Source of the DNA: Bacillus sp. X1(2014)
GTDB taxonomy: Bacteria > Bacillota > Bacilli > Bacillales_B > DSM-18226
Assembly (NCBI RefSeq): GCF_007678255.1
Contig: NZ_VEED01000016.1
Location: 1-64,000 of the forward strand
Direction of reading: 5' to 3'
Length of the DNA stretch: 64,000 bases
Every line of letters begins with the position of its first letter. Within the stretch, counting starts at the first letter, position 1. The translations under genes were made by a program, and so were the position numbers. Under the pieces are notes generated by a model that saw only the letters and a program-made list of their open reading frames with translations, had not been told where the DNA came from and did not search any database. Positions 41,593 through 64,000 of this stretch are shown in pieces.

Positions 41593-44262
41593 GTGAAAAA
41601 CGTGAAAAAGGGCCTTTTGTGGCTGGTTTTCTTTTTGTGCATCTTTTTGGCGGGGTTATCACCCAACACAAGCTATGCCAAACAGCCAGAATCATCTTAT
41701 TGGTATCCCGAGCAATTATTGAATTGGACGCCGGAGAACGATCCGGATGCTGTGTTTAACCGCAGCCAAATTCCATTGGGCAAACGGGACGTGTTATACA
41801 AAGTCAATGACCATGCTCAGTCAGATGCAAAGGTAGTAGCTTTGTCTGCACTCAACCCCACTACGAGTGGAGTACCGTCCCAAGGCGGGAAGGAATTTTT
41901 GGCGAATACCTTCAGTTATTGGCAATACGTCGACATCATGGTGTATTGGGCAGGGTCTTCCGGTGAAGGGATTATCGTACCGCCAAGTGCGGACGTCATT
42001 GACGCTGCCCATAAAAACGGCGTACCGATTTTAGGAAACGTTTTCTTTCCACCGACCGTCTATGGCGGAAAGGTCGAGTGGCTGAACCAAATGTTGACCC
42101 AACGGGAGGACGGCTCCTTCCCAGCGGCGGACAAGCTGCTTGAAGCGGCACGCTATTACGGATTTGACGGCTGGTTTATTAACCAGGAAACCGAAGGCGG
42201 AGATGCCAAGACAGCTCAAAAAATGAAGGATTTCCTTGTCTATCTTCAGCAGCATAAGAGTGATGGCATGCATATCATGTGGTACGATTCGATGACAAAG
42301 GACGGGAGGGTTAGCTGGCAAAATGCGTTGACCAATCAAAACAGCAGCTTCCTGCAGGATGGGGAGACACGTGTTTCTGACAGTATGTTTTTAAACTTCT
42401 GGTGGCGCAATCAGCAATCATCTGTTAACAAGGCTCAGGAAATTGGCAGAAGTCCGTATGATTTATTTACCGGGATTGATGTGGAAGCAAATGGGACAAG
42501 CACCAACGTTGCTTGGGATGGGATTTTCCCTGAGGGGAAAGCACCATTAACTTCATTAGGCATTTATCGCCCGGACTGGGCCTTTAAAACGGCTGAGACC
42601 ATGGAGGAGTTTTATCAGAAGGAAAATGAATTTTGGGTTGGAAAATCCAAAAATCCTGCTGCAACCAGCAATAACGGGGCATGGAAAGGGATGGCCCACT
42701 ACTTTACGGCTAAAACCGCAATCGAGGAGCTTCCTTTTGTGACGCACTTTAATACAGGAAGCGGCAAGTTTTTCGCTACAGATGGAAAGACGGTAAGCAA
42801 TCAGTCCTGGAATAACCGCAGTCTCCAGGATATCCTTCCGACCTGGCGCTGGCTGAAAGAGGGCGGGCAGGCTGTTGATGTCGATTTCGATTGGGATACA
42901 GCTTATTACGGCGGCAGCTCATTAAAGCTTTCAGGAACAATCGAGGCCGACAACTCAACACATATCAAGCTTTATAAAACCAATTTGCCGATCCAAAAGG
43001 ATACGGAAATCTCGCTGACATACAAAACAGATTTGAAAAAGCCAAACATGAAACTGGGAGTCAGCTTTACTGACAAACCCGACCAATTTGTGTTCTTTGA
43101 TGTGAAAAAACTAACGGATCAACTGTGGACTACTGACACATTCAAACTAAAAAAATACAGCGGTAAAAACATCGCGGCCATCTCACTTTTGGTTGAAAGT
43201 GATAAAGATGAGAAAGATTTTACGACCAATATCGGAGAAATCAAGGTTTATAACAAACAGGAAAAACACAATTCTATCCATGCTCCGAACGATGCAAAGG
43301 TAAATAAAATTGAGTTTAATAAAGGAATCTATGCGGACGTTGCACTTGCTTGGATACCGTCTGATTCCGATGTGAGCCACTATGACATTTACCGGAAGCT
43401 GCCGAACAATGAAAAAGAGTTTGTTGGTGCTACCCCTAATAAGGTGTATTACCTATCCAATCTGAAGAGAAGCGGCAAAGAAAGCAGCACCACGTTGGAA
43501 ATTGTTGCGGTGAACAAAGAATTCAAACGCAGCGAACCGACATCGGTTACATTCGATTGGCCGCCATATCCAAAGCCGGAAGCCGATTTCGGTGCCGATC
43601 AAACGGTAGCGGCTCCAGGGCAGGAAATTCATTTTCTTAATCGTTCATCAGAAGTAACAGAAGAGATGGAATGGCATTTTGAAGGTGGAACTCCAGCAGT
43701 GAGTAATGAGGAAAATCCGGTCGTCACCTATGAAAAAGAAGGCGTCTACTCGGTTACCCTGATCGCGAAAAACAGCGAGGGTGAAAGTGTCCTGACAAAA
43801 GAAGCGATGATTACCATTTCTGAAGCAGCCAAGGACATTAAAAATGTGGCATTGAATAAGACCGCGATCGCCAGTGGACAATGTGCTCCGACTGAAGCAG
43901 CGAAATATGCGTTCGATGGCAAAGTAAACAGTAAATGGTGTGCATTGGGGAATGCTCCTCATTGGCTGCAGGTTGATCTTGGAGATCAATTTGCCCTTTC
44001 CAAGTTTGTCATTCACCATGCTCAAGCGGGCGGGGAACCGCAAGCCTTTAATACCCAGGCAAATAGAATTGAAGTAAGTACCGATGGAGTAAATTGGACG
44101 GAGGCTGTGAAGGTTACCGATAATACAGCAGCTGTTTCGGAACACAGCATCGCGTTAACAAAATCACGTTACGTTCGTTTGTGGATTGATAAACCAACAC
44201 AAGGCGGCGATTCGGCTGCAAGGATATTTGAATTTGAAGTCCATGGATTTCTCAATCCGTAA
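41593..44262 (+). CDS. Secreted endo-beta-N-acetylglucosaminidase, GH85, with PKD and CBM32-like domains
   Basis: GH85 enzymes cut the chitobiose core of N-glycans and release the glycan from protein. The 889-residue protein has a signal peptide (about 1-29), then the GH85 domain from YWYPEQLLNWTPENDPD. The catalytic Asn197/Glu199 pair is in DGWFINQET. A PKD-like domain is at about residues 660-745 (GQEIHFLNRSSE...VTYEKEGVYSVTLIAKN). A C-terminal discoidin/CBM32-like domain starts at about 755, with WCALGNAPHWLQVDLG. It starts with GTG at 41593 behind GAGGAG. There is no LPXTG anchor, so it should be secreted. It heads the N-glycan locus and is followed by a second GH85. Confidence 0.9.
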   Translation: MKNVKKGLLWLVFFLCIFLAGLSPNTSYAKQPESSYWYPEQLLNWTPENDPDAVFNRSQIPLGKRDVLYKVNDHAQSDAKVVALSALNPTTSGVPSQGGKEFLANTFSYWQYVDIMVYWAGSSGEGIIVPPSADVIDAAHKNGVPILGNVFFPPTVYGGKVEWLNQMLTQREDGSFPAADKLLEAARYYGFDGWFINQETEGGDAKTAQKMKDFLVYLQQHKSDGMHIMWYDSMTKDGRVSWQNALTNQNSSFLQDGETRVSDSMFLNFWWRNQQSSVNKAQEIGRSPYDLFTGIDVEANGTSTNVAWDGIFPEGKAPLTSLGIYRPDWAFKTAETMEEFYQKENEFWVGKSKNPAATSNNGAWKGMAHYFTAKTAIEELPFVTHFNTGSGKFFATDGKTVSNQSWNNRSLQDILPTWRWLKEGGQAVDVDFDWDTAYYGGSSLKLSGTIEADNSTHIKLYKTNLPIQKDTEISLTYKTDLKKPNMKLGVSFTDKPDQFVFFDVKKLTDQLWTTDTFKLKKYSGKNIAAISLLVESDKDEKDFTTNIGEIKVYNKQEKHNSIHAPNDAKVNKIEFNKGIYADVALAWIPSDSDVSHYDIYRKLPNNEKEFVGATPNKVYYLSNLKRSGKESSTTLEIVAVNKEFKRSEPTSVTFDWPPYPKPEADFGADQTVAAPGQEIHFLNRSSEVTEEMEWHFEGGTPAVSNEENPVVTYEKEGVYSVTLIAKNSEGESVLTKEAMITISEAAKDIKNVALNKTAIASGQCAPTEAAKYAFDGKVNSKWCALGNAPHWLQVDLGDQFALSKFVIHHAQAGGEPQAFNTQANRIEVSTDGVNWTEAVKVTDNTAAVSEHSIALTKSRYVRLWIDKPTQGGDSAARIFEFEVHGFLNP

Positions 44263-44266
44263 CCAT

Positions 44267-44345
44267 GTGGCCATGGGGACGGTTCCGCTGGCTTTTTCCA
44301 GGTGAACCTTGGGAGAAAGCCATGAGAACCGTCCCGCAGGCTTTA
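44267..44345. repeat. Dispersed GGGACGGTTC hairpin element between the GH85 genes
   Basis: Arms ggggacggttccgctggctt and aagccatgagaaccgtcccg enclose ttccaggtgaacc. It is the most complete copy in the window and could fold as a stem in the polycistronic transcript between the two GH85 genes. Confidence 0.75.
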
Positions 44346-44362
44346 ATTAGAGGAGGAGCAAG

Positions 44363-47300
44363 ATGAGGAGAAATAGAAGCAAGTTGTTCGGCCGCATTTT
44401 ATCTGTGTCGGCTGCTTTCATGTTACTCGGTTCACTGGATGTCCCCGGGGCAAAAGCCGCCGTTAATGGGGACGGGACGGACATCGTCAATGAAAATTAT
44501 GCGGACAGGCTCAGTCTAAAGCCGCTGGCTCCGGCCTTTAGGGTGGAAACCCTTCTGAACTGGTCGCCTGAAAACGACCCAGATGCCGAAATAAACCGGG
44601 CCAGCGTGCCGTTAAACAAAAATCGCTTTAAAGGGTCCCAGGTGAATCCACTGGCCAATCCAAAGGCTGGCATCACCTCTGCGGCGATTACGAACTGGAA
44701 TCATGATGAGGCCAGCTCCGTCGGGGGCAATGATTTTAATGTATATGCTTTCGACAATTGGCAATTACTAGATTCCTATATTTACTGGTCAGGAACCAAT
44801 GAAGGGATTTTTGCCATCCCTACACCGGATATCGTCGATGCCGCCCACCGGAATGGGGTGCCTGTTTATGCCACGCTTGGTTTCCCATGGGGCAGTTCCG
44901 CTGAGGGAGTCGCCGAAATCGAAAAGTTCACACAGCAGAAACCGGATGGCAGTTTCCCCGTTGCCGACAAGATGATGAAAGTGGCGGAGTACTATGGTTT
45001 TGATGGCTATTTTTTCAATCAGGAAACGTCTGGTGTCAGTAAGGCTACAGCTGAACGCATGAATGAAATGATGCGCTATATTAAACGGAATTCCAACCTA
45101 AATGTCAGCTGGTATGACGCGCAGGACAATACAGGAGCCATCAACTATCAAGATTCCATCAACAGCAAAAATGACATGTATGTGAAACCAGCAGAAGATG
45201 GGGAATATGCCGTTGATGAGTTCTTTTTAAACTATAACTGGACTACCAGTAAGATTAACACCACCGTAGAGACGATGAAAGGCCATAACCGCAGCCCGTT
45301 TGATGCCTATGCCGGTTTTGAAATTCAACAGAATTCCTATAATACCAAAATTAATACCGATGCACTGCTCGATGAAAAGAAACAGCCGAAAGTGTCGATT
45401 GCTCTTTATGCGCCAAACTCGACCATGGGGTTAGCGGCTGATCCGGCTGACTTCCATGAAAAAGAAAAGAATTTATGGACAGGACCACAGGGCGATCCTA
45501 CCCTTGCCGATGATTCGGCTGCTTGGAAAGGGATGGCGCGTTTTGTCACGGATGCATCTGTAATCCAATCCAAGCCATTTACAACAAACTTTAACAGCGG
45601 CCACGGAACACAATACTTTGTGAACGGAAAAATCGCCAGCGGAATTGAGTGGAATAACCGCTCCATCCAGGATATCATGCCGACGTGGCGCTGGTGGATC
45701 CGAGGGGAAGGCAGCAAAATCAAGGTTTCCTATGACTTTGATAAAGCCTATAACGGAGGCAATTCGCTGGAATTTAGCGGTGCGCTCGAAGCGGGTTCTG
45801 TCAATGACACGATGCTGTACAGCTCCAAACTTCCGGTTACGGACACAACCAAGGTCCGTGTCGTTTATCAAAACCAATCGGGAGCGGATGTGTCGCTGGG
45901 TGTGGCCTATAGTGAAGACTATGCACAAAGCAACATGAAATATTATCCGCTGCCTAAGTCGGGAGATGGCTGGCAGACAGCGGTTGTCGACCTAGGAAAG
46001 GATGCCGGGAAAACAGCCTATGCGCTAAGTCTGAAAGTCAACAACACTCAAAAAATAGAAAACTACTCGATTCATTTAGGCGAGCTGTCCGTCTATGATG
46101 CTGCGGCTGCCGTGCTGACGAAACCTGCTGATGTGAAAATTCTAGAAGAAATGCCGGAAACAGCGTTTGAGGCGGAAGCCCGCCTAAGCTGGTCCGAGCA
46201 GAAGAATGTCTTGCATTATGAGGTTTACCAGGAGAATGCCGATGGCGTAGAAACCCTATTGGGCGTAACACCGAATAACTATTTCTATACGCCAAATATT
46301 ACGAGAACAATAGAAAATGCTTCGGCTGATAACATCACGAAACTGAAAGTGGTGCCGGTCAATCAAGATAATGTACGCGGTCAAGCCGCCACAGTTTCTT
46401 TTGACTGGGGCATGGGAACGGATGCAACCGAGATTGAGAAAAACCCTACTTCTCCGAATGTGGCGTTAAAGGCTAAGGTAACATCTGTCTCCGCGGAAAA
46501 TGCGGCAGAACCTGCCTCTAAAGCACTGGATGGGACAGCCCTCGCAAACAGTAAATGGTGCGCTACCAATATGAAAACTGGTTATATGACGATTGATATT
46601 GGTGAAGAGAAAACGATCCGCCGCTGGCGTGTGGAGCATGCGGAATATGGCGGGGAAGCCAATAACATGAACACCGTCGATTTTGAGCTGCTTTATAAAA
46701 ATCAAACCGGCGAATGGGTCAGCGCCAAACGGATTACCGATAATACGAAAGCTGTGACAGATATAGTGCTAGATCAGCCGGTTACGGCAAGGGAATTCAA
46801 GCTGCAGATTTATAACAGTGGTACTTCCCCTTGGGGAGCGATCCGTATCTATGATTGGCAAATGTTTGAAAGTGCTGCTTTGCCGAGAACAGAAAACGTG
46901 ATGATGCATTTTGTAAAGGCGGAAAACAACGCTGGAGCCCAGGATAAGGTAACGATTGAAAGAGTGAAAAAAGGTCAAACCGTTCGATTATATAAGTCCT
47001 TGGATGCAGAGAATATTCTGGCAGAAAAGACGGCCGACCAAGACGGAACCATCGCCTTTGAACAGTTGGATTTCGGTACTGAGGCCGGAAGAATCTATTA
47101 TACTGTCCAGCAGGAGGATGAAAGAGAAAGCCTAAGGTATAGTGCGGCTTACTTGAACGAAAAGGTAACCGAAGTCATTCATCTAATCAACGCTCTTCCT
47201 GATGTAGATCAATTGACGTTAGCTGATAAGCATCGTGTCAACGACTGCAAAGTGGCCTACAACAAGCTTCATCCAACCTTAAGAAGCCAGGTTACAAACT

Positions 47301-47368
47301 ATGACCGTCTAGTTCAATTAATGGATCGGATGGAGGAATTAAAAAAGGACTTTAATAATGGAAATTAA
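44363..47368 (+). CDS. Secreted endo-beta-N-acetylglucosaminidase, GH85, second enzyme
   Basis: This 1001-residue protein has a signal peptide (about 1-32, ending GAKAA) and a GH85 domain (from LLNWSPENDPDAEINRA). The catalytic Asn219/Glu221 pair is in GYFFNQETSG. A fibronectin-like segment lies near residues 590-685. A discoidin/CBM32-like domain at about 695-845 has KWCATNMKTGYMTIDIGEEK. A further C-terminal region of about 150 residues ends in a charged helix and is absent from the first enzyme. There is no PKD domain and no wall anchor. Divergence from the upstream enzyme suggests a different N-glycan preference. The ATG at 44363 follows AGAGGAGG. Confidence 0.9.
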   Translation: MRRNRSKLFGRILSVSAAFMLLGSLDVPGAKAAVNGDGTDIVNENYADRLSLKPLAPAFRVETLLNWSPENDPDAEINRASVPLNKNRFKGSQVNPLANPKAGITSAAITNWNHDEASSVGGNDFNVYAFDNWQLLDSYIYWSGTNEGIFAIPTPDIVDAAHRNGVPVYATLGFPWGSSAEGVAEIEKFTQQKPDGSFPVADKMMKVAEYYGFDGYFFNQETSGVSKATAERMNEMMRYIKRNSNLNVSWYDAQDNTGAINYQDSINSKNDMYVKPAEDGEYAVDEFFLNYNWTTSKINTTVETMKGHNRSPFDAYAGFEIQQNSYNTKINTDALLDEKKQPKVSIALYAPNSTMGLAADPADFHEKEKNLWTGPQGDPTLADDSAAWKGMARFVTDASVIQSKPFTTNFNSGHGTQYFVNGKIASGIEWNNRSIQDIMPTWRWWIRGEGSKIKVSYDFDKAYNGGNSLEFSGALEAGSVNDTMLYSSKLPVTDTTKVRVVYQNQSGADVSLGVAYSEDYAQSNMKYYPLPKSGDGWQTAVVDLGKDAGKTAYALSLKVNNTQKIENYSIHLGELSVYDAAAAVLTKPADVKILEEMPETAFEAEARLSWSEQKNVLHYEVYQENADGVETLLGVTPNNYFYTPNITRTIENASADNITKLKVVPVNQDNVRGQAATVSFDWGMGTDATEIEKNPTSPNVALKAKVTSVSAENAAEPASKALDGTALANSKWCATNMKTGYMTIDIGEEKTIRRWRVEHAEYGGEANNMNTVDFELLYKNQTGEWVSAKRITDNTKAVTDIVLDQPVTAREFKLQIYNSGTSPWGAIRIYDWQMFESAALPRTENVMMHFVKAENNAGAQDKVTIERVKKGQTVRLYKSLDAENILAEKTADQDGTIAFEQLDFGTEAGRIYYTVQQEDERESLRYSAAYLNEKVTEVIHLINALPDVDQLTLADKHRVNDCKVAYNKLHPTLRSQVTNYDRLVQLMDRMEELKKDFNNGN

Positions 47369-47375
47369 ATAAAAG

Positions 47376-47426
47376 AAGGGGGCAGCCCTCATTGCAGGAA
47401 AGCAATGAACGGCTGCCCCCATTTTT
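47376..47426 (+). terminator. Terminator after the GH85 pair
   Basis: gggggcagcc and ggctgccccc form the base of a long hairpin, with an inner stem cattgc/gcaatg, followed by atttttc. It splits the GH85 pair from the intracellular enzymes. Confidence 0.85.
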
Positions 47427-47522
47427 CATGAACTATTTTTAGATACACTGTAAAATCCATAGGACTTACTAGTAATCTATTGCTCGAAAATCCTGGCTTG
47501 TTAAAATGAAGTCAAAGCAAAA

Positions 47523-47570: not shown

Positions 47571-50276
47571 ATGAATAAAACTGCACATATTATCTCCCAT
47601 TCCCACTGGGACAGGGAATGGTACTTGCCTTTTGAAAAGCACCGTTACTACTTCATAAAGCTAATGAATGAGTTGATCGACCAGTTCAAAAAAGAAGGAA
47701 ATAAGTTTCAAGCGTTCCATCTGGATGGCCAGACTGTTCTTTTGGAGGATTATTTTGCCGTTCATCCGGAAAACCGGGAGATTGTCAAACAATTAATTGA
47801 TCAGAAAAAGCTGCATATCGGACCGTGGTATGTGCTGCAGGATGCTTTTTTAACAAGCTCTGAAGCCAATGTTCGGAACCTGCAAATCGGTTTACACGAG
47901 ACACAAGCCTATGGGCACATCTCAAAAATTGGCTACTTTCCTGACACTTTTGGCATTTATGGGCAGGCGCCCCAGCTTTTAAAGCAAGCTGGAATTGATA
48001 CGGCGGCCTTCGGAAGGGGCGTCAAACCGACCGGCTTTAATAACACCGTGTCGGATTCTCCTGATTATGAATCTCCCTATTCCGAGATGATTTGGAAATC
48101 ACCGGACGGCTCGAACGTATTGGGCATTCTTTTTGCCAATTGGTACTCGAACGGAAATGAAATCCCGGTGGACGAAGCGGAAGCGAAGAAATTCTGGGAT
48201 GTAAAACTCCGCGATGCCGAAAAGTATGCGTCCACCAATCAGTTATTGTTTATGAATGGATGTGACCACCAGCCGCTGCAAAAAACGATTCCGCAGGCGA
48301 TTGAAACGGCAGCTAGTTTATATCCTGATTACACCTTTAAGCATTCTAGTTTTGATGAATATACAGAAGCGTTAAAAGAAGCACTTCCAGAAAAGCTGCA
48401 GGTCATTGAAGGCGAATTGCGCAATCAGCGGACTGATGGCTGGTCGACGCTTGTCAATACCGCATCCAGCCGGATTTATTTAAAGCAATGGAACAACCAC
48501 TGTCAAACCCTTTTGGAAAAAATCGCCGAGCCGCTCGCGAGCATGGCCTTTTTAGCAGGCGGGACTTACCCAAGGGAATATCTCCGCTTCATGTGGAAAT
48601 CCTTGATGAAAAATCACCCGCATGACAGCATTTGCGGCTGCAGCGTGGATGAGGTGCACCGCGAAATGGAGACCCGCTTTGAAACGGTTTCGCAAATGGG
48701 AGAGGTGTTTGTATCGGAGCAGGCGGCAGAGCTTGCTGGTAAAATTGATACCTCGGGCGCACCGAAGGCCGGAATTCCCCTTGTTGTCTTGAATACAACG
48801 GGCTGGGAAAAAGACGAAGTCGTCACGCAAACAGTTGATCTGGAAAAGGTGTATTTTTCGCAAATGCATTTTGAAGAAATTCCAATCTATTTACAGGATA
48901 AAGAATTGCCTGCCTACAAGCTGGTCGATCAATCCGGCAAGACCATCGAAAGTCAGCTGCAAAGCCCTGTGGTGGAGTTTGGCTATGATTTACCGGATGA
49001 CAAGTTCCGCCAGCCGTTTTTTGCCAAACGAGCCAAGCTTTCCTTCTTTGCAGAAAATATCCCGGCATTCGGCTACAAGACCTTCTATCTTATTCCGGAG
49101 GAGCGGCCGGCCGGGGAATGTCCAGAACACGCGGCGGATGGCGGCATGGAAATGGAAAATGAATATGTTCACCTTCTGTTTCATGAGGATGGCACCTATG
49201 ATTTGACGAATAAAGCAACCGGCAGGACCTTCCATCGTCTCGGTATTTACGAGAACACAGGGGATGTCGGCAATGAATATATGTTCAAGGAAGCAAAAGG
49301 ACAGAATCCGATTACGACCAAGGGTGTGCCAGCCGGATTCCGTTTCCTTGAAAAATCACCGCTTCGAACAGAGCTTGAATTTACACATACCTTAACCATT
49401 CCGGTTTCAGCGGACGACCGATTGGCCATCGAACGGAACCGCTTGATTTGGCATAAGGAGAGAGAAGCCGGCAGATCGAACGAAATGACGACCATTACAC
49501 TACGTACCGTTGTGATTCTTGAAAAAGGAATGAAGGGGCCGGCTTTCAAGCTGACCATTGACAATCAAGCAGCCGACCACCGCCTGCGTATCCTTTTCCC
49601 GACAGGATTGCAAACGGAAACACACCAGGCCGACAGTATTTTTGAGGTTGTGACCCGCCCGAATACACCGGAAAAGGAATGGGAAAATCCAAGCTTTTGT
49701 CATCACCAGCAGCGCTTCGCCAGCATTAACGGTGCCGAGATGGGCTTAACCGTGGCCACGGACGGCCTTCAGGAATATGAAATCCTGCCAGCGGACGGAA
49801 CGATTGCCCTCACCGTACTTCGTTCGGTTGCCGAGCTTGGTGACTGGGGTTACTTCCCAACACCGGAAGCCCAGTGCATCGGGATTCAAACAGCCGAGTG
49901 GCAAGTGCTCATGCATGAAAAAGATGTGATTGCATCAGAAGCATTTGTGGATGCTTATCAATATAAAGTTCCCCTTCAGGTTATTCAGACAAGCGCCCAT
50001 GAAGGGACATTGCCAGCTGACCATCAGTTTGTGAACTGGGAGTCCGAGGGCCTTGCGTGGTCATCGATGAAAGTGGCGGAAGAATGTGATGACGTGATGA
50101 TTCGCTGGTTCAATCCAGCGCCAGAGAGTAAAATTCTCACGGCATCCATCCCCGCCCAGCCGGGTTTTACATCTTACAAGAGTACGATACTTGAAGAACA
50201 AACCAATGATTCTAACGAGCAGTATGAAGTCACTGGCTATGAAATTATTACACTAGGTTTTCAACATAAGCGATAG
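47571..50276 (+). CDS. Cytoplasmic alpha-mannosidase, GH38 (MngB/SpGH38-like)
   Basis: This 901-residue GH38 enzyme lacks a signal peptide and should act on imported mannosides. The zinc-binding N-terminus reads ISHSHWDREW (His10, His12, Asp14), and the nucleophile is Asp125 in GYFPDTFGIYGQ. The family C-terminal beta-rich domains follow. It belongs to the bacterial branch that includes MngB and the streptococcal N-glycan mannosidase. The GH125 gene follows after 11 bases, a pairing also seen in streptococcal N-glycan loci, where the two together remove alpha-1,3/1,2 and alpha-1,6 mannose. The ATG at 47571 follows GAAAGCGGG, a weak site. Confidence 0.88.
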   Translation: MNKTAHIISHSHWDREWYLPFEKHRYYFIKLMNELIDQFKKEGNKFQAFHLDGQTVLLEDYFAVHPENREIVKQLIDQKKLHIGPWYVLQDAFLTSSEANVRNLQIGLHETQAYGHISKIGYFPDTFGIYGQAPQLLKQAGIDTAAFGRGVKPTGFNNTVSDSPDYESPYSEMIWKSPDGSNVLGILFANWYSNGNEIPVDEAEAKKFWDVKLRDAEKYASTNQLLFMNGCDHQPLQKTIPQAIETAASLYPDYTFKHSSFDEYTEALKEALPEKLQVIEGELRNQRTDGWSTLVNTASSRIYLKQWNNHCQTLLEKIAEPLASMAFLAGGTYPREYLRFMWKSLMKNHPHDSICGCSVDEVHREMETRFETVSQMGEVFVSEQAAELAGKIDTSGAPKAGIPLVVLNTTGWEKDEVVTQTVDLEKVYFSQMHFEEIPIYLQDKELPAYKLVDQSGKTIESQLQSPVVEFGYDLPDDKFRQPFFAKRAKLSFFAENIPAFGYKTFYLIPEERPAGECPEHAADGGMEMENEYVHLLFHEDGTYDLTNKATGRTFHRLGIYENTGDVGNEYMFKEAKGQNPITTKGVPAGFRFLEKSPLRTELEFTHTLTIPVSADDRLAIERNRLIWHKEREAGRSNEMTTITLRTVVILEKGMKGPAFKLTIDNQAADHRLRILFPTGLQTETHQADSIFEVVTRPNTPEKEWENPSFCHHQQRFASINGAEMGLTVATDGLQEYEILPADGTIALTVLRSVAELGDWGYFPTPEAQCIGIQTAEWQVLMHEKDVIASEAFVDAYQYKVPLQVIQTSAHEGTLPADHQFVNWESEGLAWSSMKVAEECDDVMIRWFNPAPESKILTASIPAQPGFTSYKSTILEEQTNDSNEQYEVTGYEIITLGFQHKR

Positions 50277-57400: not shown

Positions 57401-57518
57401 AGGCATCACCTCATGGGTGGAGACCAATTTGATGGAAGAACCAATCGGAGAAGAATCGGCATCACTGATTGAGGTTGAAATCAAACCGTATGAGATTAAG
57501 ACTTTTCGAGTTTTATAG
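54408..57518 (+). CDS. Cytoplasmic alpha-mannosidase, GH38 (second, long type)
   Basis: This 1036-residue GH38 enzyme has an N-terminal domain of about 240 residues, then the catalytic domain. The zinc motif GHTHIDVAW is at 244-252 (His245, His247, Asp249), and the nucleophile is Asp359 in WLPDVFGYSWALPQIL. It is the class II alpha-mannosidase type (yeast Ams1/lysosomal-like architecture) and not closely similar to the GH38 at 47571. There is no signal peptide. It probably handles alpha-1,2/1,3/1,6 mannose on imported glycans. A 42-base remnant of its 3' end recurs at 63370. The ATG at 54408 follows ACGAGGTG. Confidence 0.9.
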   Translation: MFLTERKFEERIKELEGYRNRDLKGIHQFFAQEDDGEIGAYPPAAYDEQKVMNIGDYWKGRDRYIWLHAEIDTHLPYADQQIVGLFSFGKTGGGNNSGFESLLFVNGEPYQGVDSNHEEVLFDNQTAKGPMRLDFRLWSGLEGGGVPTENEFKLQMAAIGWLDRRVDNLYYTLLAAYEVIKETSESDSAYTILKKLISDTLHLINWTEPGSPEFYQSCYAAEESLTEAIQSFTKSSDITIHTVGHTHIDVAWLWRLKNTREKSARSFSTVLHLMKQFPEYLFLQTQPQLYDYIKTDYPEIYAQIKDRVAEGKWEAGGAMWLESDCNIPSGESLVRQILHGKNFFKEEFGVDCEYLWLPDVFGYSWALPQILTKSGIKTMMTTKISWNQYNRMPHDTFYWKGIDGTEILTHFITTPEPWNSPDSWFYTYNGFITAKTVNGAWKGYRDKDLSKDLLLSYGYGDGGGGVNRHMLEMRRRFDALPGMPNVKTSTAGEFFNKLHENVAESDGYIHKWDGELYLEYHRGTYTSQAFMKQMNRKLELLYRRAEFLTSWLSENGQWMGTDELKNGWKIILRNQFHDIIPGSSIHEVYEDAKEEYKEALELVRNVESRIIEHGIKKDDRSVVLFNATHHQGKKNVAVQQFADFAGGVWKNSKGEILTHQKRDNGWLIEVDTLPSFGAKTLYFEPAAAVQETNSNFSYQDRKLETPYYLVEWNEFGQMTSLFDKEAGRGVLAENQKGNILQIFEDKPLAHDAWDIDLFYQEKMEEIRDLIRFEVVENGELTFTILAKWTYHHSEISQRIVFYQNDRRIDFETKVEWHEKRKLLKAAFPVDIRATEATYDIQYGNVKRPTHWNTSWDMAKFETVGHQWADLSEPDYGVSLLNDSKYGYDIKENIMRITLLKSAIHPDPQADQGSHSFVYSLYPHIGEWRKAKTVETAWDLNDPVVASEGKWAKEESFLEMDSDHVWIDSIKPAYDGNGIIIRLHEYEGRRGKVSLDVARGITSWVETNLMEEPIGEESASLIEVEIKPYEIKTFRVL

Positions 57519-57618: not shown

Positions 57619-58116
57619 ATGAGGTTAAAGAAAGTTCTGAATAACAATGCTGTATTGGTAACCGATGGCGATGAAGAGAAGGTCGCGTTTGGGACTGGAA
57701 TTGCGTATGGAAAGAGGAGAAATGATCTGATTCATTTTCAGGAGGTTGAAAAGCTGTTTGTCATGAAGGAAAATGAAAAGTTGCAACAACTCTTGAGTCG
57801 TATTCCAGAAGAACACTTTATTCTTTCAGAAGAGATTATCTCCTATGCAGAACAATACCTTGGCAGCAAGCTGAGTGAGCACATTCATCTCGCCTTAACG
57901 GATCATGTGTCATATACAATCGATCGCATAAAGCAGGGCATTCATTTAAAAAACGAATTATTAAATGAAATAAAAATCTTATATAGCAAAGAATATGAAA
58001 TTGGTCTTTGGGCAATAAACCGAATGAAGGAAAAGTGTAATATTGATGTGACAGTGGATGAAGCAGCTTTTATAGCTCTTCATATCTATACAATGAGGCT
58101 TCAAGGAGCCGAGTGA
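57619..58116 (+). CDS. Short BglG/LicT-type antiterminator (CAT plus PRD1 only)
   Basis: This 165-residue protein has an N-terminal CAT RNA-binding domain (1-58, MRLKKVLNNNAVLVTDGDEE) and one PRD domain (about 65-165). The two PRD1 regulatory histidines are kept at His96 (LTDHVSYTI) and His155 (FIALHIY). LicT/BglG proteins usually have about 280 residues with two PRDs, so the second PRD is absent here. The frame closes cleanly with no visible remnant of PRD2, so it may be a natural short form rather than a truncation. A RAT-like site and terminator lie just downstream before the GH84 genes, its likely target. It starts at the ATG at 57619 behind AAAGGAGGTGG. Confidence 0.85.
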   Translation: MRLKKVLNNNAVLVTDGDEEKVAFGTGIAYGKRRNDLIHFQEVEKLFVMKENEKLQQLLSRIPEEHFILSEEIISYAEQYLGSKLSEHIHLALTDHVSYTIDRIKQGIHLKNELLNEIKILYSKEYEIGLWAINRMKEKCNIDVTVDEAAFIALHIYTMRLQGAE

Positions 58117-58219: not shown

Positions 58220-58249
58220 CGCATGTTACTGACACGATCAGGCAGGGCG
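58220..58249 (+). promoter_or_regulatory. Ribonucleic antiterminator (RAT) site
   Basis: cgcatgttactgacacgatc followed by aggcagggcg matches the layout of LicT/BglG RAT RNAs: a TGTTACTG...CAGGCA core with a stem ctga/tcag and asymmetric internal loops. Its right part overlaps the left arm of the terminator beginning at 58242, which is the hallmark of RAT-controlled leaders. Confidence 0.7.
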
Positions 58250-58300
58250 ACGCTTTGTAAGGAGGACTTCCTCCTTGCTTGGTGTTGTCCTGCTTTTTTT
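58242..58300 (+). terminator. Leader terminator overlapping the RAT
   Basis: gcaggcgacgc-like left arm (58242-58253) pairs with gtgttgtcctgc (58282-58293) through several G-U pairs, with an inner hairpin aaggagga/tcctcctt and seven Ts. Antiterminator binding to the RAT would block it and let GH84 transcription proceed. Confidence 0.75.
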
Positions 58301-58397
58301 GTCGAAGCGATGGAAGCGGTTACTTGTAAACTGGAACATCTTGAAATACGAGATTCGTCCCTAAGAATTCAAAATGATAGAAGAAGAGGTGGCAAAG

Positions 58398-60710
58398 GTG
58401 GCAAAAAGTAAAGCATTAAAGGCGGTTGTTTCAGCCTGTTTGGTATCAGGGTTATTGGTTCCGCTGAATATTCCAGCAGCAGGACAAGCAAAGGCAAGTG
58501 AAACCTACGAAATGACTGTATCCCCCATCCCGAAATCGTTAGAACAAACAGACAAAGGTTTCCCGCTGAATCCAAAAGTAGGATTGGTTACGGAAAAAGG
58601 AACCGACCCTGCGGCGATTGCTGAATTGAAGCAAGCCCTGAAGGAGGCAGGTGTTACCACCATTGTGGAGAGTGATATCAAAACCCCTAATCTCCAGGCC
58701 CCCGTCATCATTTGGCTGGGGGAATTCTCCGACCCGGACGAGCTAAAAACCATTCAGCAGCACACTGACCTGGAGGATTTGGTAATGACAAAAAAAGAGG
58801 GGTATATTGTCTCCTCCAAGCACGGCACCAAGGATAAAAAACATATTGTTATTTCCGGACATGATGAGGCAGGGACGTATTACGGGACCCAAACCTTCGA
58901 ACAAATCATTGTCGAACGGAAAGGAACTGATTGGATTCCTGAGGTGGAAATTAAGGACTGGCCAACGATGCCGATCAGGGGCTCAATTGAAGGCTTTTAT
59001 GGTGCGCCATGGTCACATGAGGATCGCTTGCGTCAGATCGGATTTTACGGTGAGCATAAAATGAACAGCTATATTTATGCTCCGAAGGATGACCCTTACC
59101 ACCGGGAAAAATGGAAGGAGCCGTATCCTGCGGATAAGATAGCGGAGCTTACCGAACTAGTTCAGGCCGCACAAGAAAACCATGTCGCCTTTACATTCGC
59201 CATTTCGCCGGGGAATACAATCACTTATTCCAGTGAGTCGGACCTGAAGGCATTGATTCAAAAGGCCCAAGCCATGTGGGATATCGGCGTGAGATCGTTT
59301 GCCTTATACCTTGATGATATTGACCCGAACCTCCATTCCCCTGAAGACAGGGCGATGTTTGGCGGAGATCCGAACCCGCCGGCAGCGGCACAGGCGTATC
59401 TATTAAATCGATTTAACGAAGAATTTATTAAAAAACACAACGGTGCGGAGCGCTTAATCACGGTGCCGACAGACTATTATCAGGCGGGAACCACTCCTTA
59501 CCGGAAACGTTTTGCAGAGCTAGTTCAGTCTGACATTATTGTTCAATGGACAGGAATTGGTGTCGTTGCTCCTACGATTACGTCACAGGATGCCGATAAA
59601 ATTCATGGGATTTTTAAACACGATTTGCTGATTTGGGATAACTATCCGGTGAATGATTTTGATCGCAACCGCTTGTTCCTAGCGCCGCTGACGGGCCGGG
59701 ATTCGGATTTAACGCCTGAACATGGTGTGATTGGCTTAACAGCCAATCCAATGAATGAGGCAGAAGCTTCAAAAATTTCACTGTTTACCGTTGCCGATTA
59801 TACGTGGAACCCTGAAGCCTATGACCCGGCTGATTCGCTGAAGCGGAGTCTGAAGGAATTTGCCGGAGCAGCCTATGAACCTTTAAATCTCTTTGTGGAA
59901 GCCTCGTATGCTACGAGTCTTAATAACAACCGGGAGCCAATTTCGGAAAGAGTAAAGCCGCTAATCGAGCAATTTTGGCTGGCAGAGGAAGCAAAGGACA
60001 GTCAGGCAGTTTCCGAGGCTGGCAAGGCCTTGTTACAGGAATTCAGCAAGATGGAGCAGGCCGCTAAGCAGCTGCGGGAGCAGGTGGATAATCCGAACTT
60101 CTTGAAGGAGGTCACCGGGTATTTAAATAAACTGGAGCTATATGGACAAGCAGGTGAGTCGGCCGTTAACATGGTGCTGGCAGGACAGAGTGGGGATACG
60201 GCTACGGCTGCTGCGGAGCGCATGGTGCTCCAGCAATCGATGACAGCGATAAACGAAATCCCGCAGAAGCTGAGTATTGGCGTGGTTCCGACCTTCCTGG
60301 AGCGGGCGCTTAACGGGAAAAATATAGCAGAAGGGAAAAAAGCTGACGCTTCTTCGAGTGAAGTCAACTGGCTGACGCCAAACCTGGCCGTAGACGGGAA
60401 CAACAATACTAGATGGGCTTCCTTGTACACTGATAATCAATGGCTCAGCGTCGACCTTGGGCAAGTGTATTCCATTGATAAAGTGAAATTATACTGGGAA
60501 TCTGCCTATGGAAAACAATATAAAATTCAAGTGTCAAACGACGGAAGTCAGTGGACAGATGTTTACACAGAGCTAAACAGCAGCGGGGGAACCGATGAAA
60601 TTCAGTTCCCTGCCGTCGAAGCTCGATACGTTAAAATGCAAGGCATCAAACGTTCAAGCAGCTGGGGCTACTCTCTGTACGAATTCAGTGTCTTTGCATC
60701 ACAAAACTAA
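58398..60710 (+). CDS. Secreted beta-N-acetylglucosaminidase, GH84, with CBM32-like domain
   Basis: GH84 enzymes (bacterial hyaluronidase/O-GlcNAcase family) remove beta-GlcNAc by substrate assistance. The 770-residue protein has a signal peptide (about 1-33, ending QAKA) and an N-terminal GH20b-like domain. The catalytic domain starts at GSIEGFYGAPWSHEDRL and carries the catalytic pair Asp306-Asp307 in ALYLDDIDPN. A helical domain precedes a C-terminal discoidin/CBM32-like domain with LAVDGNNNTRWASL and QWLSVDLGQ. I prefer the GTG at 58398 behind AAGAGGTGG over the ATG at 58374. It is the first gene after the RAT leader. There is no cell-wall anchor. Confidence 0.88.
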   Translation: MAKSKALKAVVSACLVSGLLVPLNIPAAGQAKASETYEMTVSPIPKSLEQTDKGFPLNPKVGLVTEKGTDPAAIAELKQALKEAGVTTIVESDIKTPNLQAPVIIWLGEFSDPDELKTIQQHTDLEDLVMTKKEGYIVSSKHGTKDKKHIVISGHDEAGTYYGTQTFEQIIVERKGTDWIPEVEIKDWPTMPIRGSIEGFYGAPWSHEDRLRQIGFYGEHKMNSYIYAPKDDPYHREKWKEPYPADKIAELTELVQAAQENHVAFTFAISPGNTITYSSESDLKALIQKAQAMWDIGVRSFALYLDDIDPNLHSPEDRAMFGGDPNPPAAAQAYLLNRFNEEFIKKHNGAERLITVPTDYYQAGTTPYRKRFAELVQSDIIVQWTGIGVVAPTITSQDADKIHGIFKHDLLIWDNYPVNDFDRNRLFLAPLTGRDSDLTPEHGVIGLTANPMNEAEASKISLFTVADYTWNPEAYDPADSLKRSLKEFAGAAYEPLNLFVEASYATSLNNNREPISERVKPLIEQFWLAEEAKDSQAVSEAGKALLQEFSKMEQAAKQLREQVDNPNFLKEVTGYLNKLELYGQAGESAVNMVLAGQSGDTATAAAERMVLQQSMTAINEIPQKLSIGVVPTFLERALNGKNIAEGKKADASSSEVNWLTPNLAVDGNNNTRWASLYTDNQWLSVDLGQVYSIDKVKLYWESAYGKQYKIQVSNDGSQWTDVYTELNSSGGTDEIQFPAVEARYVKMQGIKRSSSWGYSLYEFSVFASQN

Positions 60711-60746: not shown

Positions 60747-60777
60747 TACTGGAAGCGATTTGAGGAGGATAAACAGA

Positions 60778-63351
60778 ATGTCTTTTTTTAAACATGGAAA
60801 ACAGGTGTTAGCGGTCTGCGTTACGTTCGGGCTGTGTACTCTGTCAGCGTTTCCAAGTGGAACTGGACAGGCTTCGGCGGCAGGCAGAGGAGACCTTGCC
60901 CTGAATCCAACACCGCAGGAGCTAAAACTATCAGATAAAGGGTTTCCACTGACGCCAAATGTCGGAATTGTGGTAGACAAGAAAACGGATGAACAAGCGA
61001 TCAACGAAGTTGTTGAGGCATTAGAAGCTGCGGACGTAAAACAGATTGTCCGTATTCATGCCGGGGAAAAGGTAACAACCCCCGTTACCATCTGGGTCGG
61101 CGGGCCTTCGGAAAATAAGGATTCAGCCGCTGTCTTAGATCAGATGGGAGTAGTAGGACCTGAATCTTTAAAGGATGAGGGATATGTCCTGGTATCCAAG
61201 CAAAAAGGAAAGAATCAGATTGTTCTTGCCGGGAAGGACAAGGCGGGAACGTATTATGCGGCAAAAACGTTCAAGCACTTGATTCAAGAGCGGGAAGGAA
61301 GAGATTGGATTCCGGAGGCAGAAATTCATGACTGGCCGGAAATGCCGATTCGTGGTTCCATCGAAGGGTTCTATGGCCCGCCGTGGACACACGAGGACAG
61401 AATCTCCCAGCTGGAATTCTACGGAGAAAATAAACTGAATACGTATATTTACGCTCCGAAGGATGATCCTTATCATCGCGAGAACTGGCGTGATCCTTAC
61501 CCAGAGGCAGAATTAGCAGAAATTACCGAGCTGATTGAAAAGGCCAAAGAGAATCATGTGAAATTCACCTTCTCGCTGTCCCCTGGTCAATCCATCTGCT
61601 ATTCCGGGGATCAAGATTTCGCCTTGCTAGAAAAGAAAATGGACACGATGTGGGACTTGGGTGTCCGCTCCTATGCGATTTTTCTAGATGATATTGATAT
61701 GAACTTAAGCTGCCAGCAAGATCGGGAAAAATTTGCAGGAGATACAAATCCGGTTGCTGCTGCACATGCTTATCTGTTAAATCGGTTTACAGAAGAATTT
61801 ATCAATACCCATGAGGGGGCCGAGCGGTTGATAACCGTTCCGACGGATTATTCCGGGAACGGGCCATCTCCTTACCGTGATCGATTTGCGGAATTACTTG
61901 ACAAGGACACGGTTGTTATGTGGACAGGTCAAAAGGTTGTGTCAGAGCAGGTCGCTGCCGAAGAAGCGGATGAGGTTCACGGAGTATTTCAACACGATAT
62001 GTTATTATGGGACAATTACCCAGTAAACGACTATGACCGGAATAGCTTGTTCCTCGGTCCCATTGTAGGACGTGATGCTGATTTATCCAAGCATGGAGTT
62101 GCCGGGTTAACAGCAAATCCAATGAACGAAGCCGAAGCTTCCAAAATTCCTTTGTACACGATTGCGGATTATACTTGGAACCCGGCGGCCTATGACCCAA
62201 TCGATTCATGGAAGCGCAGTATTCAATCCTTTGGTGGAGAGGCCGCAGAAACGCTAAAAACCGTAGCGGAGAATATGTATTCCTCACCGATTAATACCAC
62301 AGAGTCCCTTACCTTAACGCCATTGATCGATGCGTTCTGGAAGGCCTATGTGGCAGGTGATGCCGATCAAGCAGCAGAACAGTTAATCGCTGAATTTAAA
62401 AAGATTCAACATGCTCCAGCTAAACTTCAGCAGGAAATGGACAATAAAAAGTTCCTTCAGGAAATAGAACCTTATTTAGAAAAAGTAAATATCTATGGTA
62501 AGGCGGGGGAAACGGCTGTTCAATATGTGATGGCTCAGAAAAATGGCCATACCGACCAGGCTGCTGCCTATAGGAAACAGCTGATTACCTTGTTCAATCA
62601 ATCCGAGCAGATCCCTCAAAAGGTGGGGCAGGGTGTCATCAAACCATTCTTAGTAAAAAGTGCTTTAGTGGTACCGCCATTAGAACTTACACTGCAGCCG
62701 GTCATTGATCAGTTCTGGAAAGCGTATGATGGCGAGGGTGGCAGCCAAGAAGCCGAGCAGTTAATTACTGAATTTAAAGAGCTGCACCAAATTCCAGAAA
62801 CTATTCGCAAAGACATTGATAATGAAGCCTTTTTAACTGCCATTGATCCTTACCTTCAGAATCTTACCGTCTATGGTGAAGCTGGAGAAGTTGCTGTTCA
62901 CTATTTAATGGCTGACAAAAACGGACAGACCGATGAAGCTAATTCGTATAAAGATACCTTAAAAACCTTAATGATGCAGGCGTATCAGCAGCCGCAGGAA
63001 ATGGGAAAAGAGGTTATTAAGCCGTTCTTAATCGATAGCATGTGGAGAGACCTTGATGTGGTCGATTATCGAATGTTAGATGGGGTAAATAAATCCCGTG
63101 GAGCTGGCCAGCTGATTCAGTATACGCCTGTCTATGGAGAGACGACTCGAACAAACCCATGGGGATATGAAATCACTGTAGAAGATGGGAAAGTGGTTAA
63201 AAGAGGGGGGAATAATTCTGCCATCCCGAAAAACGGATATGTCCTAAGCATTCACGCAAATGACTGGCTGCGAGACAATACCACGATCGGAACATCCATT
63301 CAAATCGAAAACGGCGTCGTTTTGGTTATATCCCCAGAAGAGACAAACTAG
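60778..63351 (+). CDS. Secreted GH84 enzyme with duplicated helical domain
   Basis: This 857-residue GH84 protein has a signal peptide (about 1-35), a GH20b-like domain and a catalytic domain with RGSIEGFYGPPWTHEDR and Asp304-Asp305 in FLDDIDMN. In place of the CBM of the first enzyme it carries two copies of the helical domain. One begins LTPLIDAFWKAYVAGDADQA, the other LQPVIDQFWKAYDGEGG, and each ends near (G/E)VIKPFL. A C-terminal beta-type domain follows (VDYRMLDGVNKSRGAGQL...NSAIPKNGYVLS). That last domain resembles modules seen in other secreted Bacillus glycosidases. I prefer the ATG at 60778, because the upstream TTG overlaps the GAGGAGG site. Confidence 0.87.
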   Translation: MSFFKHGKQVLAVCVTFGLCTLSAFPSGTGQASAAGRGDLALNPTPQELKLSDKGFPLTPNVGIVVDKKTDEQAINEVVEALEAADVKQIVRIHAGEKVTTPVTIWVGGPSENKDSAAVLDQMGVVGPESLKDEGYVLVSKQKGKNQIVLAGKDKAGTYYAAKTFKHLIQEREGRDWIPEAEIHDWPEMPIRGSIEGFYGPPWTHEDRISQLEFYGENKLNTYIYAPKDDPYHRENWRDPYPEAELAEITELIEKAKENHVKFTFSLSPGQSICYSGDQDFALLEKKMDTMWDLGVRSYAIFLDDIDMNLSCQQDREKFAGDTNPVAAAHAYLLNRFTEEFINTHEGAERLITVPTDYSGNGPSPYRDRFAELLDKDTVVMWTGQKVVSEQVAAEEADEVHGVFQHDMLLWDNYPVNDYDRNSLFLGPIVGRDADLSKHGVAGLTANPMNEAEASKIPLYTIADYTWNPAAYDPIDSWKRSIQSFGGEAAETLKTVAENMYSSPINTTESLTLTPLIDAFWKAYVAGDADQAAEQLIAEFKKIQHAPAKLQQEMDNKKFLQEIEPYLEKVNIYGKAGETAVQYVMAQKNGHTDQAAAYRKQLITLFNQSEQIPQKVGQGVIKPFLVKSALVVPPLELTLQPVIDQFWKAYDGEGGSQEAEQLITEFKELHQIPETIRKDIDNEAFLTAIDPYLQNLTVYGEAGEVAVHYLMADKNGQTDEANSYKDTLKTLMMQAYQQPQEMGKEVIKPFLIDSMWRDLDVVDYRMLDGVNKSRGAGQLIQYTPVYGETTRTNPWGYEITVEDGKVVKRGGNNSAIPKNGYVLSIHANDWLRDNTTIGTSIQIENGVVLVISPEETN

Positions 63352-63411: not shown

Positions 63412-63421
63412 GACAAAAATG

Positions 63422-63455
63422 AACCGACTGGGGCTGCCCCAGTCGGTTATTGAAT
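63422..63455 (+). terminator. Terminator after the GH84 pair
   Basis: aaccgactgggg and ccccagtcggtt form a perfect 12-bp stem around ctg, followed by attgaattttttt. It is a strong intrinsic terminator. Confidence 0.9.
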
Positions 63456-63588
63456 TTTTTTGCCTAAATGTTGTATGATTCTAAGATTTTTGCACTTAAT
63501 CCCAAATTAGTCAACTATGATTAGGTCTCTTTTCCCTATAAAATAAAGCTATGGAAGTGCTTACATAACATTCGGAGGGAGGAGAAAC

Positions 63589-64000
63589 ATGAAAAGGATA
63601 TTAAGCGATCTCTATAAAAATCGAGTTTGGCTGCTTATGGTGTTACCAGGAACAATTTGGCTGCTCCTATTTTCATATTTGCCGATGTTTGGACAGGTAT
63701 TGGCCTTTAAAAAGTTCCGAATTGATCCCGATGGATTTTTTGCCAGCGTCATGAATAGTGAATGGGTTGGCTTTGACAACTTCAAATATTTATTCAGTAC
63801 AAATGATGCCTGGATCATTACCAGAAATACCATCCTCTACAATCTTGTCTTTATCGTATTAGGGCTGGTAACGGCGGTTGCAACAGCTGTCTTGCTCAGT
63901 GAGTTAATCAATAAGAGGCTGTCGAAGGTTTACCAAACTTCTATCTTGTTCCCGCATTTTATTTCATGGGTTATCGGCAGTTATTTTGTCTTCACCTTCT
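63589..64000 (+). CDS. LplB-type sugar ABC transporter permease (partial)
   Basis: The first 137 residues are present; the gene runs off the window. The start MKRILSDLYKNRVWLLMVLP, the segment YLPMFGQVLAFKKFR and the helix beginning NTILYNLVFIVLG are typical of the LplB/YtcP-like permeases for complex oligosaccharides in Bacilli. The ATG at 63589 follows GGAGGGAGGAG. A possible regulator site, tggaagtgcttaca, lies at about 63552. It is the expected importer for N-glycans released by the GH85 enzymes; the binding protein and second permease should follow. Confidence 0.88.
   Translation, partial: MKRILSDLYKNRVWLLMVLPGTIWLLLFSYLPMFGQVLAFKKFRIDPDGFFASVMNSEWVGFDNFKYLFSTNDAWIITRNTILYNLVFIVLGLVTAVATAVLLSELINKRLSKVYQTSILFPHFISWVIGSYFVFTF

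Follow-up and report, generated by a model that had tools for sequence, protein, structure and literature searches.

By which route could a bacillus take apart the N-glycans of other organisms, and which enzymes would split the last β-linked disaccharide once the α-mannosidases have finished? The question is raised by a gene cluster of Bacillus sp. X1(2014) in the right part of a stretch of 64,000 nucleotides (assembly GCF_007678255.1, contig NZ_VEED01000016.1, positions 1 to 64,000), called the window below. We suggest, with a probability of about 0.8 on sequence evidence, that this cluster is an N-glycan foraging locus, which as such represents a variant of the system known from streptococci. 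What is new is the reading given here to two downstream gene types, a glycoside hydrolase of family GH1 and kinases of the ROK family. The β-linked remnant expected after GH85 and the α-mannosidases is mannosyl-β-1,4-N-acetylglucosamine (Man-β-1,4-GlcNAc), and we lean towards its being finished by a BglK-like ROK kinase and a 6-phospho-β-mannosidase of GH1, at odds slightly better than even.

Typing of the window genes by Pfam profile search revealed eleven genes on the plus strand from position 41593 to the right edge, with a spacing of 11–257 nt, in the order GH85a, GH85b, GH38a, GH125, DUF624, GH20C, GH38b, a CAT-PRD antiterminator, GH84a, GH84b and the start of an LplB-type permease. All ten genes named in an initial annotation of this DNA are present (by Pfam, the permease by alignment to relatives), the half-length antiterminator gene at 57619–58116 being additional to them. 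The features of the locus are as follows.

41593–44262, plus strand: GH85a, predicted secreted endo-β-N-acetylglucosaminidase, Endo-A-like; GH85 (1.8e-90), GH85_C, PKD, F5/8C
44363–47368, plus strand: GH85b, predicted secreted endo-β-N-acetylglucosaminidase, EndoD-like; Pfam GH85 3.7e-77
47378–47420, plus strand: terminator-like hairpin behind the GH85 pair; −35.3 kcal/mol, z −7.2 (folded 47370–47430)
47571–50276, plus strand: GH38a, predicted cytoplasmic α-mannosidase of SpGH38 type; Pfam; 3lvt 2.5e-261, 2wyh 9e-245
50288–51619, plus strand: GH125, predicted cytoplasmic exo-α-1,6-mannosidase; Pfam 1.6e-156; solved relatives 2nvp/5m7i/3qpf
51644–52255, plus strand: DUF624 membrane protein; Pfam; kept in 31/32 tallied loci
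52481–54382, plus strand: GH20C, predicted cytoplasmic exo-β-hexosaminidase with GH20C C-domain; Pfam; 2epk 1.6e-109, 5a69 (GH20C) 1.3e-102
54408–57518, plus strand: GH38b, predicted cytoplasmic α-mannosidase of Ams1/Bl_Man38 type; Pfam GH38 1.7e-91; modelled fold
57619–58116, plus strand: half-length LicT/SacY-type antiterminator, CAT-RBD and one PRD; Pfam
58225–58246, plus strand: sequence like a ribonucleic antiterminator (RAT), overlapping the left arm of the terminator; pattern match
58242–58300, plus strand: strong terminator-like hairpin with T-run in the GH84a leader; −41.7 kcal/mol, z −6.95
58374–60710, plus strand: GH84a, predicted secreted β-N-acetylglucosaminidase with F5/8C; Pfam
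60760–63351, plus strand: GH84b, predicted secreted β-N-acetylglucosaminidase with duplicated NagJ_C; Pfam; 51% identity to GH84a
63422–63448, plus strand: terminator-like hairpin between GH84b and the transporter; −22.7 kcal/mol, z −5.9 (folded 63415–63460)
63589–64000, plus strand: start of an LplB-type permease (NgtP-like), running off the window edge; alignment to relatives

A simple hydropathy scan detected hydrophobic, signal-peptide-like N-termini in the four GH85 and GH84 proteins and none in GH38a, GH125, GH20C and GH38b. The 137-residue permease fragment gave no Pfam family match and aligns with the permease of relatives, at best with 97% identity (L003); the full permease of the relative L083 belongs to BPD_transp_1.

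Relatives of GH125 were scanned for, and of the 105 loci obtained 80 were kept. The best matches came from Neobacillus drentensis NBRC 102427 (97%) and Neobacillus sp. SuZ13 (95%), in which the same ten genes stand in the same order at 91–98% protein identity. Past the position of the window edge, the near relatives L083 (typed by Pfam) and L081 (by similarity) continue with the LplB permease, a second permease, a binding protein (SBP_bac_1 + DUF3502), a histidine kinase, an AraC-type response regulator, a GH1, two ROKs, two ABC exporter-type genes and a type I mannose-6-phosphate isomerase. Among them are the two transporter parts whose presence downstream the initial annotation had proposed as a check, namely the binding protein and the second permease. 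The best solved relatives of the binding protein are 5swa, 5mlt and 5suo (2e-87 to 3e-86; the next match is at 3e-7), which we take to be pneumococcal NgtS, and the locus protein appears to be NgtS-like. No gene for the importer ATPase was recognised in the locus, so this component is likely to be shared with other transporters.

The spread of the system was followed by tallying 32 loci, 21 of them extended and 11 whose retrieved stretch was already long enough, with labels set by the best BLAST match, some of them at 25–40% identity. GH38a, GH125, GH38b, DUF624, any GH85 and both permeases were present in 31 each, the histidine kinase with its regulator in 32, the binding protein in 30, GH20C in 17, GH85b in 12, GH84 in 7 (three at 25% identity) and the antiterminator in 3. 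The sole GH125 miss (L059) is an artefact, its GH125 and tail genes having been missed by the picking of open reading frames (ORFs). Left out of the counts were L009, L011 and L014 (short contigs), L025, L038, L016, and L057–L080 other than L059–L061. The antiterminator–GH84 part is a local addition, and the remainder is a shared system, mostly of Bacillaceae. Chance grouping is excluded, since dozens of genomes carry related genes together. The same distribution, again mostly in Bacillaceae, sets aside the suggestion that such a make-up is unique to this Bacillus strain, and very similar loci in “other Firmicutes” have already been reported (PMC5215778; here and below, papers are cited for the available parts of their text). 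In L084, L086 (4844–13409), L089 and L093 a GH85c–GH38c–GH3 module is added behind the core, GH85c carrying a FIMAH domain in L086. A GH125 match was present in 51 of 299 genomes drawn from the class.

From the observed genes, their order, conservation and motifs, we infer the activities on real substrates and the whole kinase/6-phospho step of the following route. Outside the cell, the Endo-A-like and EndoD-like GH85s would release high-mannose and trimmed-core glycans, each keeping one reducing-end GlcNAc, and the secreted GH84s would remove accessible β-GlcNAc. Import would be provided by an NgtS-type binding protein with two permeases, the ATPase probably being shared. Inside, the Ams1-type GH38b, the SpGH38-type GH38a and GH125 would strip α-mannose and GH20C would take terminal β-GlcNAc, leaving Man-β-1,4-GlcNAc. 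The BglK-like ROK would phosphorylate the mannose of this disaccharide at O6, and the GmuD-type GH1 would act as a 6-phospho-β-mannosidase, giving mannose 6-phosphate and GlcNAc. The Bacillaceae loci showed no recognisable gene of a phosphotransferase system (PTS), and because the N-glycan locus has an ABC importer, not a PTS, a cytoplasmic kinase would have to supply the phosphate. Free mannose would be phosphorylated by a ScrK-like ROK and passed on to glycolysis by the isomerase. The YesM/YesN-like two-component system probably senses the glycan, while the GH84 pair would have its own antitermination switch. As far as sequence can tell, the scheme of the initial annotation, in which glycans are released outside the cell, taken up by an ABC importer and trimmed inside, is upheld.

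The GH1 is linked to the core in 20 of the 21 extended loci and, by a genome search in which nearness was read from coordinates, in 11 of 15 further core loci. These 15 are what was counted of 24 genomes: L018, L044 and L054 were counted elsewhere, and L036, L039, L041, L053, L055 and L056 were left out as being without the GH38a + GH38b core (GH1 matches there: none in L036, L039, L041 and L053; 41% in L055; 65% and 44% on other contigs in L056). A visible GH1 was the ground for picking the 11 in-stretch loci of the tally, which are no test of linkage. In L018, the GH1/BglK-like pair adjoins a second GH38–GH125. The best solved relatives of the GH1 are 4b3k, presumably SPy1599, and 5foo, named 6-phospho-β-D-glycosidase (1e-150); among the database relatives listed, two at 65–68% identity are named GmuD, 6-phospho-β-glucosidase. 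SPy1599 is cited as a 6-phospho-β-glucosidase (PMC10360150).

All 30 locus GH1s read (the ORF of L059 was too short for this) contain W-S-W-x-N-x-Y-K-N-R-Y-G, which also occurs in 4b3k and 5foo. Among in-genome controls (L108, L109, L117 and L124; classes assigned by motif), the ordinary β-glucosidase has F-E-W ... K-R-F-G and the 6-phospho-type paralogs S ... K-R-Y-G. The Ser/Glu and Tyr/Phe positions play a role in the glycone pocket of 6-phospho GH1s, and the replacement of Glu by Ser and of Phe by Tyr in 30 of 30 locus GH1s read agrees with a 6-phosphate pocket. The locus GH1 is of the GmuD/SPy1599 type and appears to keep part of this pocket. In a tree of 55 GH1s, made by a quick method and accompanied by a long-branch warning from the program (one long branch lies at the base of the GmuD-type clade), the locus GH1s fall inside a 45-row GmuD-type clade (SH-aLRT 100), and six label changes are needed, at least five of them forced by well-supported branches. 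Probably, GmuD-type GH1 was drawn into N-glycan loci several times. A second cluster of Paraliobacillus sp. PM-2 (L140, 8895–17078) comprises ABC permeases, GH38, GH125, GH1 and a BglK-like ROK, the first locus of this strain being without GH1. GH130 as a general β-mannoside phosphorylase was rejected: none was seen in the loci, though it passes the cut-off in 8 of 23 genomes.

A ROK gene stands directly behind GH1 in 27 of 31 loci and is BglK-like in 19 of these (ROKa 9, c11 8, ROKd 2), the others being ROKc (6) and ROKb (2); with mechanically chosen starts, the two genes lie 2 nt apart or overlap in some loci. A BglK-like ROK is found in the cluster in 28 of the 32 tallied loci, and many loci hold it together with a second ROK. 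The name “BglK-like” is used since for ROKa, ROKd and c11 the top NCBIfam match is BglK β-glucoside kinase, under its equivalog cut-off; the best solved relatives of ROKa are 2gup and 4htl (β-glucoside kinase). The motif GE(F/L)G(Y/F) occurs in 24 of 28 rows of BglK-like ROKs (no motif was found in the remaining 4), and the glucokinase-like c15 ROKs have ExGH in 7/7 and the zinc motif in 6/7. The first 30 residues of the ROK from L145, a strepto-like stretch, are by eye nearly those of 2gup, which argues that 2gup is of the CPL-ROK type, CPL being the streptococcal N-glycan locus.

In the wider genome set, the surroundings of GH125 were read at 40 places, which lie in 38 of the 51 positive genomes, and GH1 neighbourhoods in 10 of 30 compared genomes. 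The latter comprise all 18 GH125-positive genomes of at most 2.9 Mb (of the 51) and 12 of the 248 negatives. A locus-type GH1 of at least 50% identity is present in 18/18 positives (1.8–2.9 Mb) vs 1/12 negatives (2.0–3.1 Mb; Fisher 2e-7), with 40% matches in two more negatives. The strepto-like stretches L145–L156 (the group label is our own inference) have GH125–GH38–ROK[GEFGY]–GH20C–permeases–binding protein in 12/12. Among the six other small positive genomes only L160 has a BglK-like ROK in the stretch, beside a GH1; elsewhere in the L142 genome (L213) a GH1 adjoins a ROK[GEFGL].

We are inclined, with only modest conviction, to extend the proposal: many Gram-positives may end N-glycan breakdown by a BglK-like ROK and a GmuD/BglA3/SPy1599-type GH1 and not by a β-mannosidase. 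By the same wider reading, which we favour just as guardedly, the CPL ROK with BglA3 would be the missing pneumococcal last step, and a ROK with GH4 the equivalent in Cutibacterium acnes locus 2. It is said that the pneumococcal model “lacks a candidate” for the Man-β-1,4-GlcNAc bond (PMC6160142), and the TCS07 regulon holds a GH1 and a ROK without an assigned step in this model (PMC7075642). No proposal of a kinase and 6-phospho-β-mannosidase for N-glycans was found in the literature searched, which excluded subscription papers, nor does one appear in the available parts of PMC9603416, PMC12791066, PMC4380338 and PMC7075642. If true, the phosphate-first step would fill an acknowledged hole in the pneumococcal model and may explain 6-phospho-type GH1s sitting in loci without a PTS; relatives keeping nearly all parts in one cluster provide enzymes for a bench test of the last step.

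A number of observations weigh against this proposal. The GH1, the kinases, the binding protein and the two-component genes lie outside the window and are read from 91–98%-identical relatives. There is no linked GH1 in L018, L023, L030, L031 (one lies 25 kb away) and L049, and no linked BglK-like ROK in L018, L040, L060 and L051, and the BglK-like labels of L047, L050, L095 and L096 stand at 37–40% identity. The GH1 remains under the NCBIfam 6-phospho cut-offs (356 vs 610 bits for PRK13511, 242 vs 623 for PRK09852), and the BglK cut-off of 550 bits is missed by ROKa (197), ROKd (193) and c11 (141). In the GH1s, Lys was not found directly before Arg-Tyr-Gly, as in the KRYG of other 6-phospho GH1s; it stands one place earlier, as also in SPy1599 4b3k, and is replaced by Arg in L160/L197, L203 and L205. 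ROKb and ROKc, too, are without the zinc motif, so its absence is not special to the BglK-like group. The 18/18 count is confounded by kinship, 12 of the 18 being strepto-like; 7 of the 18 GH1 matches carry a flag for a single TAG within the alignment (open frame of 467); and the best GH1s of G288, G049 and the control G061 adjoin PTS genes, so that a GH1 of this kind need not belong to N-glycan breakdown. No ROK was found in the stretch in five of the six other small genomes (L142, L143, L144, L157, L159). Finally, all five stretches from large genomes in which the LplB relative reaches at least 45% (L168, L173, L175, L177, L180) have GH38c + GH3 and no GH1, and another solution of the last step, with GH3, may exist.

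These points lead to the alternatives. The GH1 could be an ordinary phosphate-free β-mannosidase or β-glucosidase, the adjoining ROK phosphorylating only free mannose or GlcNAc, and we regard this as possible though doubtful. GH1 β-mannosidases do exist (PMC6160142). The top NCBIfam model of the locus GH1 is TIGR03356 (β-glucosidase), below the cut-off, and L040 and L060 carry a GH1 without a linked BglK-like ROK. Against such a function speak Ser in place of the Glu that marks ordinary GH1s in the same genome set, the 6-phospho assignment of SPy1599, presumably the nearest solved relative 4b3k, and the second ROK beside the BglK-like one in many loci. That GH1 and BglK-like ROK are passengers in the locus, handling another disaccharide (N-acetyllactosamine from complex antennae, cellobiose or a chitin fragment), seems unlikely: the GH1 was apparently recruited into N-glycan loci several times and adjoins GH125 in L140, and the β-linked remnant to be expected is Man-β-1,4-GlcNAc. 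What speaks for passengers is the 6-phospho-β-glucosidase citation of SPy1599 and the existence in GH1 of dual enzymes for 6-phosphogalactosides and 6-phosphoglucosides (PMC10360150).

More improbable still is that the whole locus feeds on fungal or yeast α-mannan or mannoproteins at large, N-glycans being one substrate among others. In favour of this reading, the bacillus lives in soil, α-mannosidases dominate, no sialidase or β-galactosidase was found among the window's cluster genes, and other GH125 stretches with GH38 + GH3 show no GH85 (L036, L039). In contrast, the tallied loci contain GH85, the family cutting the N-glycan core, in 31 of 32, the binding protein is NgtS-like, and no endo-α-mannanase family was found among the window's cluster genes. 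We retain N-glycan foraging, with the phosphate-first last step, as the preferred explanation.

For N-glycan foraging, the two GH85s would form a natural endoglycosidase pair with probably complementary specificities. GH85a has its best solved relatives in 2vtf/3fha (E 4e-210), presumably Arthrobacter Endo-A, with 704 bits for 2vtf vs 348 bits for 2w91, and GH85b in 3gdb (539 bits, 3e-160) and 2w91 (EndoD; 459 bits, 4e-136), followed by 2vtf (351 bits). FINQET stands at residue 195 in GH85a, where this NQET-type motif presumably has a catalytic role, and FFNQET occurs in GH85b. The pair had been described as duplicated, which has to be corrected: the identity is 30%, on which a recent duplication was rejected, and one enzyme is nearest Endo-A, the other nearest EndoD. 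Given the specificity of Endo-A, an Endo-A-like enzyme would make pre-trimming of glycans outside the cell unnecessary. EndoD is inactive on glycans above Man5GlcNAc2, which pneumococcus trims first with GH92 (PMC5215778). The model of GH38b (pLDDT 83.6) has its best fold matches in fission-yeast Ams1 (6lz1, TM 0.85) and Bl_Man38A, and this Ams1-type enzyme probably stands in for GH92, taking α-1,2-mannose. GH92 was found neither among the window's cluster genes (Pfam), as the initial annotation had noted, nor in 21 of 23 relatives' genomes searched; with one in only 2 of 23, it was rejected as a part of the locus. GH29, searched for in the window only, is likewise missing among the cluster genes (Pfam).

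The GH84 pair is probably switched by antitermination, since an antiterminator gene precedes it and a RAT-like sequence overlaps the terminator. The antiterminator (165 aa) consists of a CAT RNA-binding domain and one PRD, and the LicT/SacY layout of CAT and two PRDs was not found in it (LicT 172 bits vs a cut-off of 300). Its relative in L040 (Mesobacillus foraminis) is longer (273 aa), the second half being a putative PRD2. The short form is common to L001 and L002, with a dN/dS of 0.15–0.21, indicating constraint, vs 0.10–0.18 for two neighbours. Its best 120 database relatives are mostly of ~270 aa, the short ones being the window's own cluster with P0122, P0190 and P0213. In the GH84a leader, GTTACTG(9 nt)GGCAGG overlaps the left arm of the terminator and is nearly unchanged in three genomes; the pattern has a single match in the window, with 0.03 expected. 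Perhaps, HPr control was lost with the second half of the antiterminator. Enterococcus NagY is a described antiterminator that also controls hylA, a gene for a glycan-degrading enzyme (PMC12502629). A CRE-like site at 58310–58324 was not used; the window has 5 pattern matches vs 1.5 expected. Because terminator-type hairpins stand after GH85b, before GH84a and after GH84b, the locus probably forms several transcription units: GH85a–GH85b, GH38a to GH38b, the antiterminator, GH84a–GH84b and the transporter. An Rfam search of the window found nothing.

Around these genes, degenerate short repeats of the kind AATTCGCTGATAAA were noticed by eye in the DUF624–GH20C gap (52256–52480), and at 40980–41120 (minus strand) a remnant resembles an EAL-domain protein, its reading frames judged by eye. 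Directly upstream, at 35761–40816, are a MocA oxidoreductase, a TIM-barrel isomerase, a ROK regulator, asparaginase II (PF06089) and CutC; MocA–ROK–AsnII also adjoins the N-glycan locus of Fredinandcohnia quinoae (L023). As a part handling the GlcNAc-Asn stump, the asparaginase-II/ROK/MocA module was rejected, being linked in 2 of 5 ortholog-bearing genomes (orthologs of at least 69% in the window, G026, which is L023, G024, G007 and G018; 25 genomes searched). Genes of hexuronate-type catabolism occupy 3370–18585 (UxuA, mannitol-dehydrogenase-type enzymes, an altronate-dehydratase-type protein and a PfkB kinase).

Among known systems, the C. acnes N-glycan loci share the cytoplasmic GH38, and locus 2 also GH125, GH20 and ROK; locus 1 differs by a confirmed GH5_18 β-mannosidase, and locus 2 by a GH4 (predicted 6-phospho-glucosidase), with no β-mannosidase named in the available text (PMC6160142). 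A second likeness is to the glucomannan operon gmu of B. subtilis. In Neobacillus drentensis JC05 there is a gmu-like operon of PTS IIB-IIA-IIC, GH1, GntR, ROK and mannose-6-phosphate isomerase (PMI), with GH26 farther on, in which GH1, ROK and PMI are 66, 77 and 77% identical to the locus GH1, ROKb and PMI (GmuD-, GmuE- and GmuF-like). In contrast to the ABC importer of the N-glycan locus, gmu uses a PTS, which brings in mannan oligosaccharides (PMC11669640). For this reason, the natural substrate of GmuD is probably a phosphorylated manno-disaccharide. The S. pyogenes cluster presumably comprises SpGH38 (structure 2wyh), GH125, GH84 and the GH1 SPy1599 (structure 4b3k); it would share the enzyme families of our locus, including a GH84 and this GH1 type, and differ by having no GH85.

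The closest comparison is with S. pneumoniae, whose N-glycan system consists of CPL (SP_2141–2146), EndoD, NgtS-P1-P2 and the TCS07 regulon (PMC5215778, PMC7075642). Common to both are GH38, GH125, GH20C, GH85, an NgtS-type binding protein with two permeases, a ROK, a two-component system and a GH1 (BglA3 of the TCS07 regulon), and the pneumococcal regulon also has the ScrK fructokinase and ManA. BglA3 lies just downstream of tcs07 in three streptococci, yet is not specifically inherited with it (PMC7075642). The genes scattered in S. pneumoniae form one cluster here, in which GH92 is absent and the Endo-A-like GH85, the Ams1-type GH38b and the GH84 pair are extra. The GH38–GH125 pair, a marker of streptococcal CPL (PMC5215778), is present in the window together with GH85 and GH20C, and relatives add the ROK and the NgtS-type binding protein with two permeases, of which the window holds only the start of the first permease. 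Because CPL is also defined by GH92, we file the locus not as CPL itself but as a variant that would work like it.

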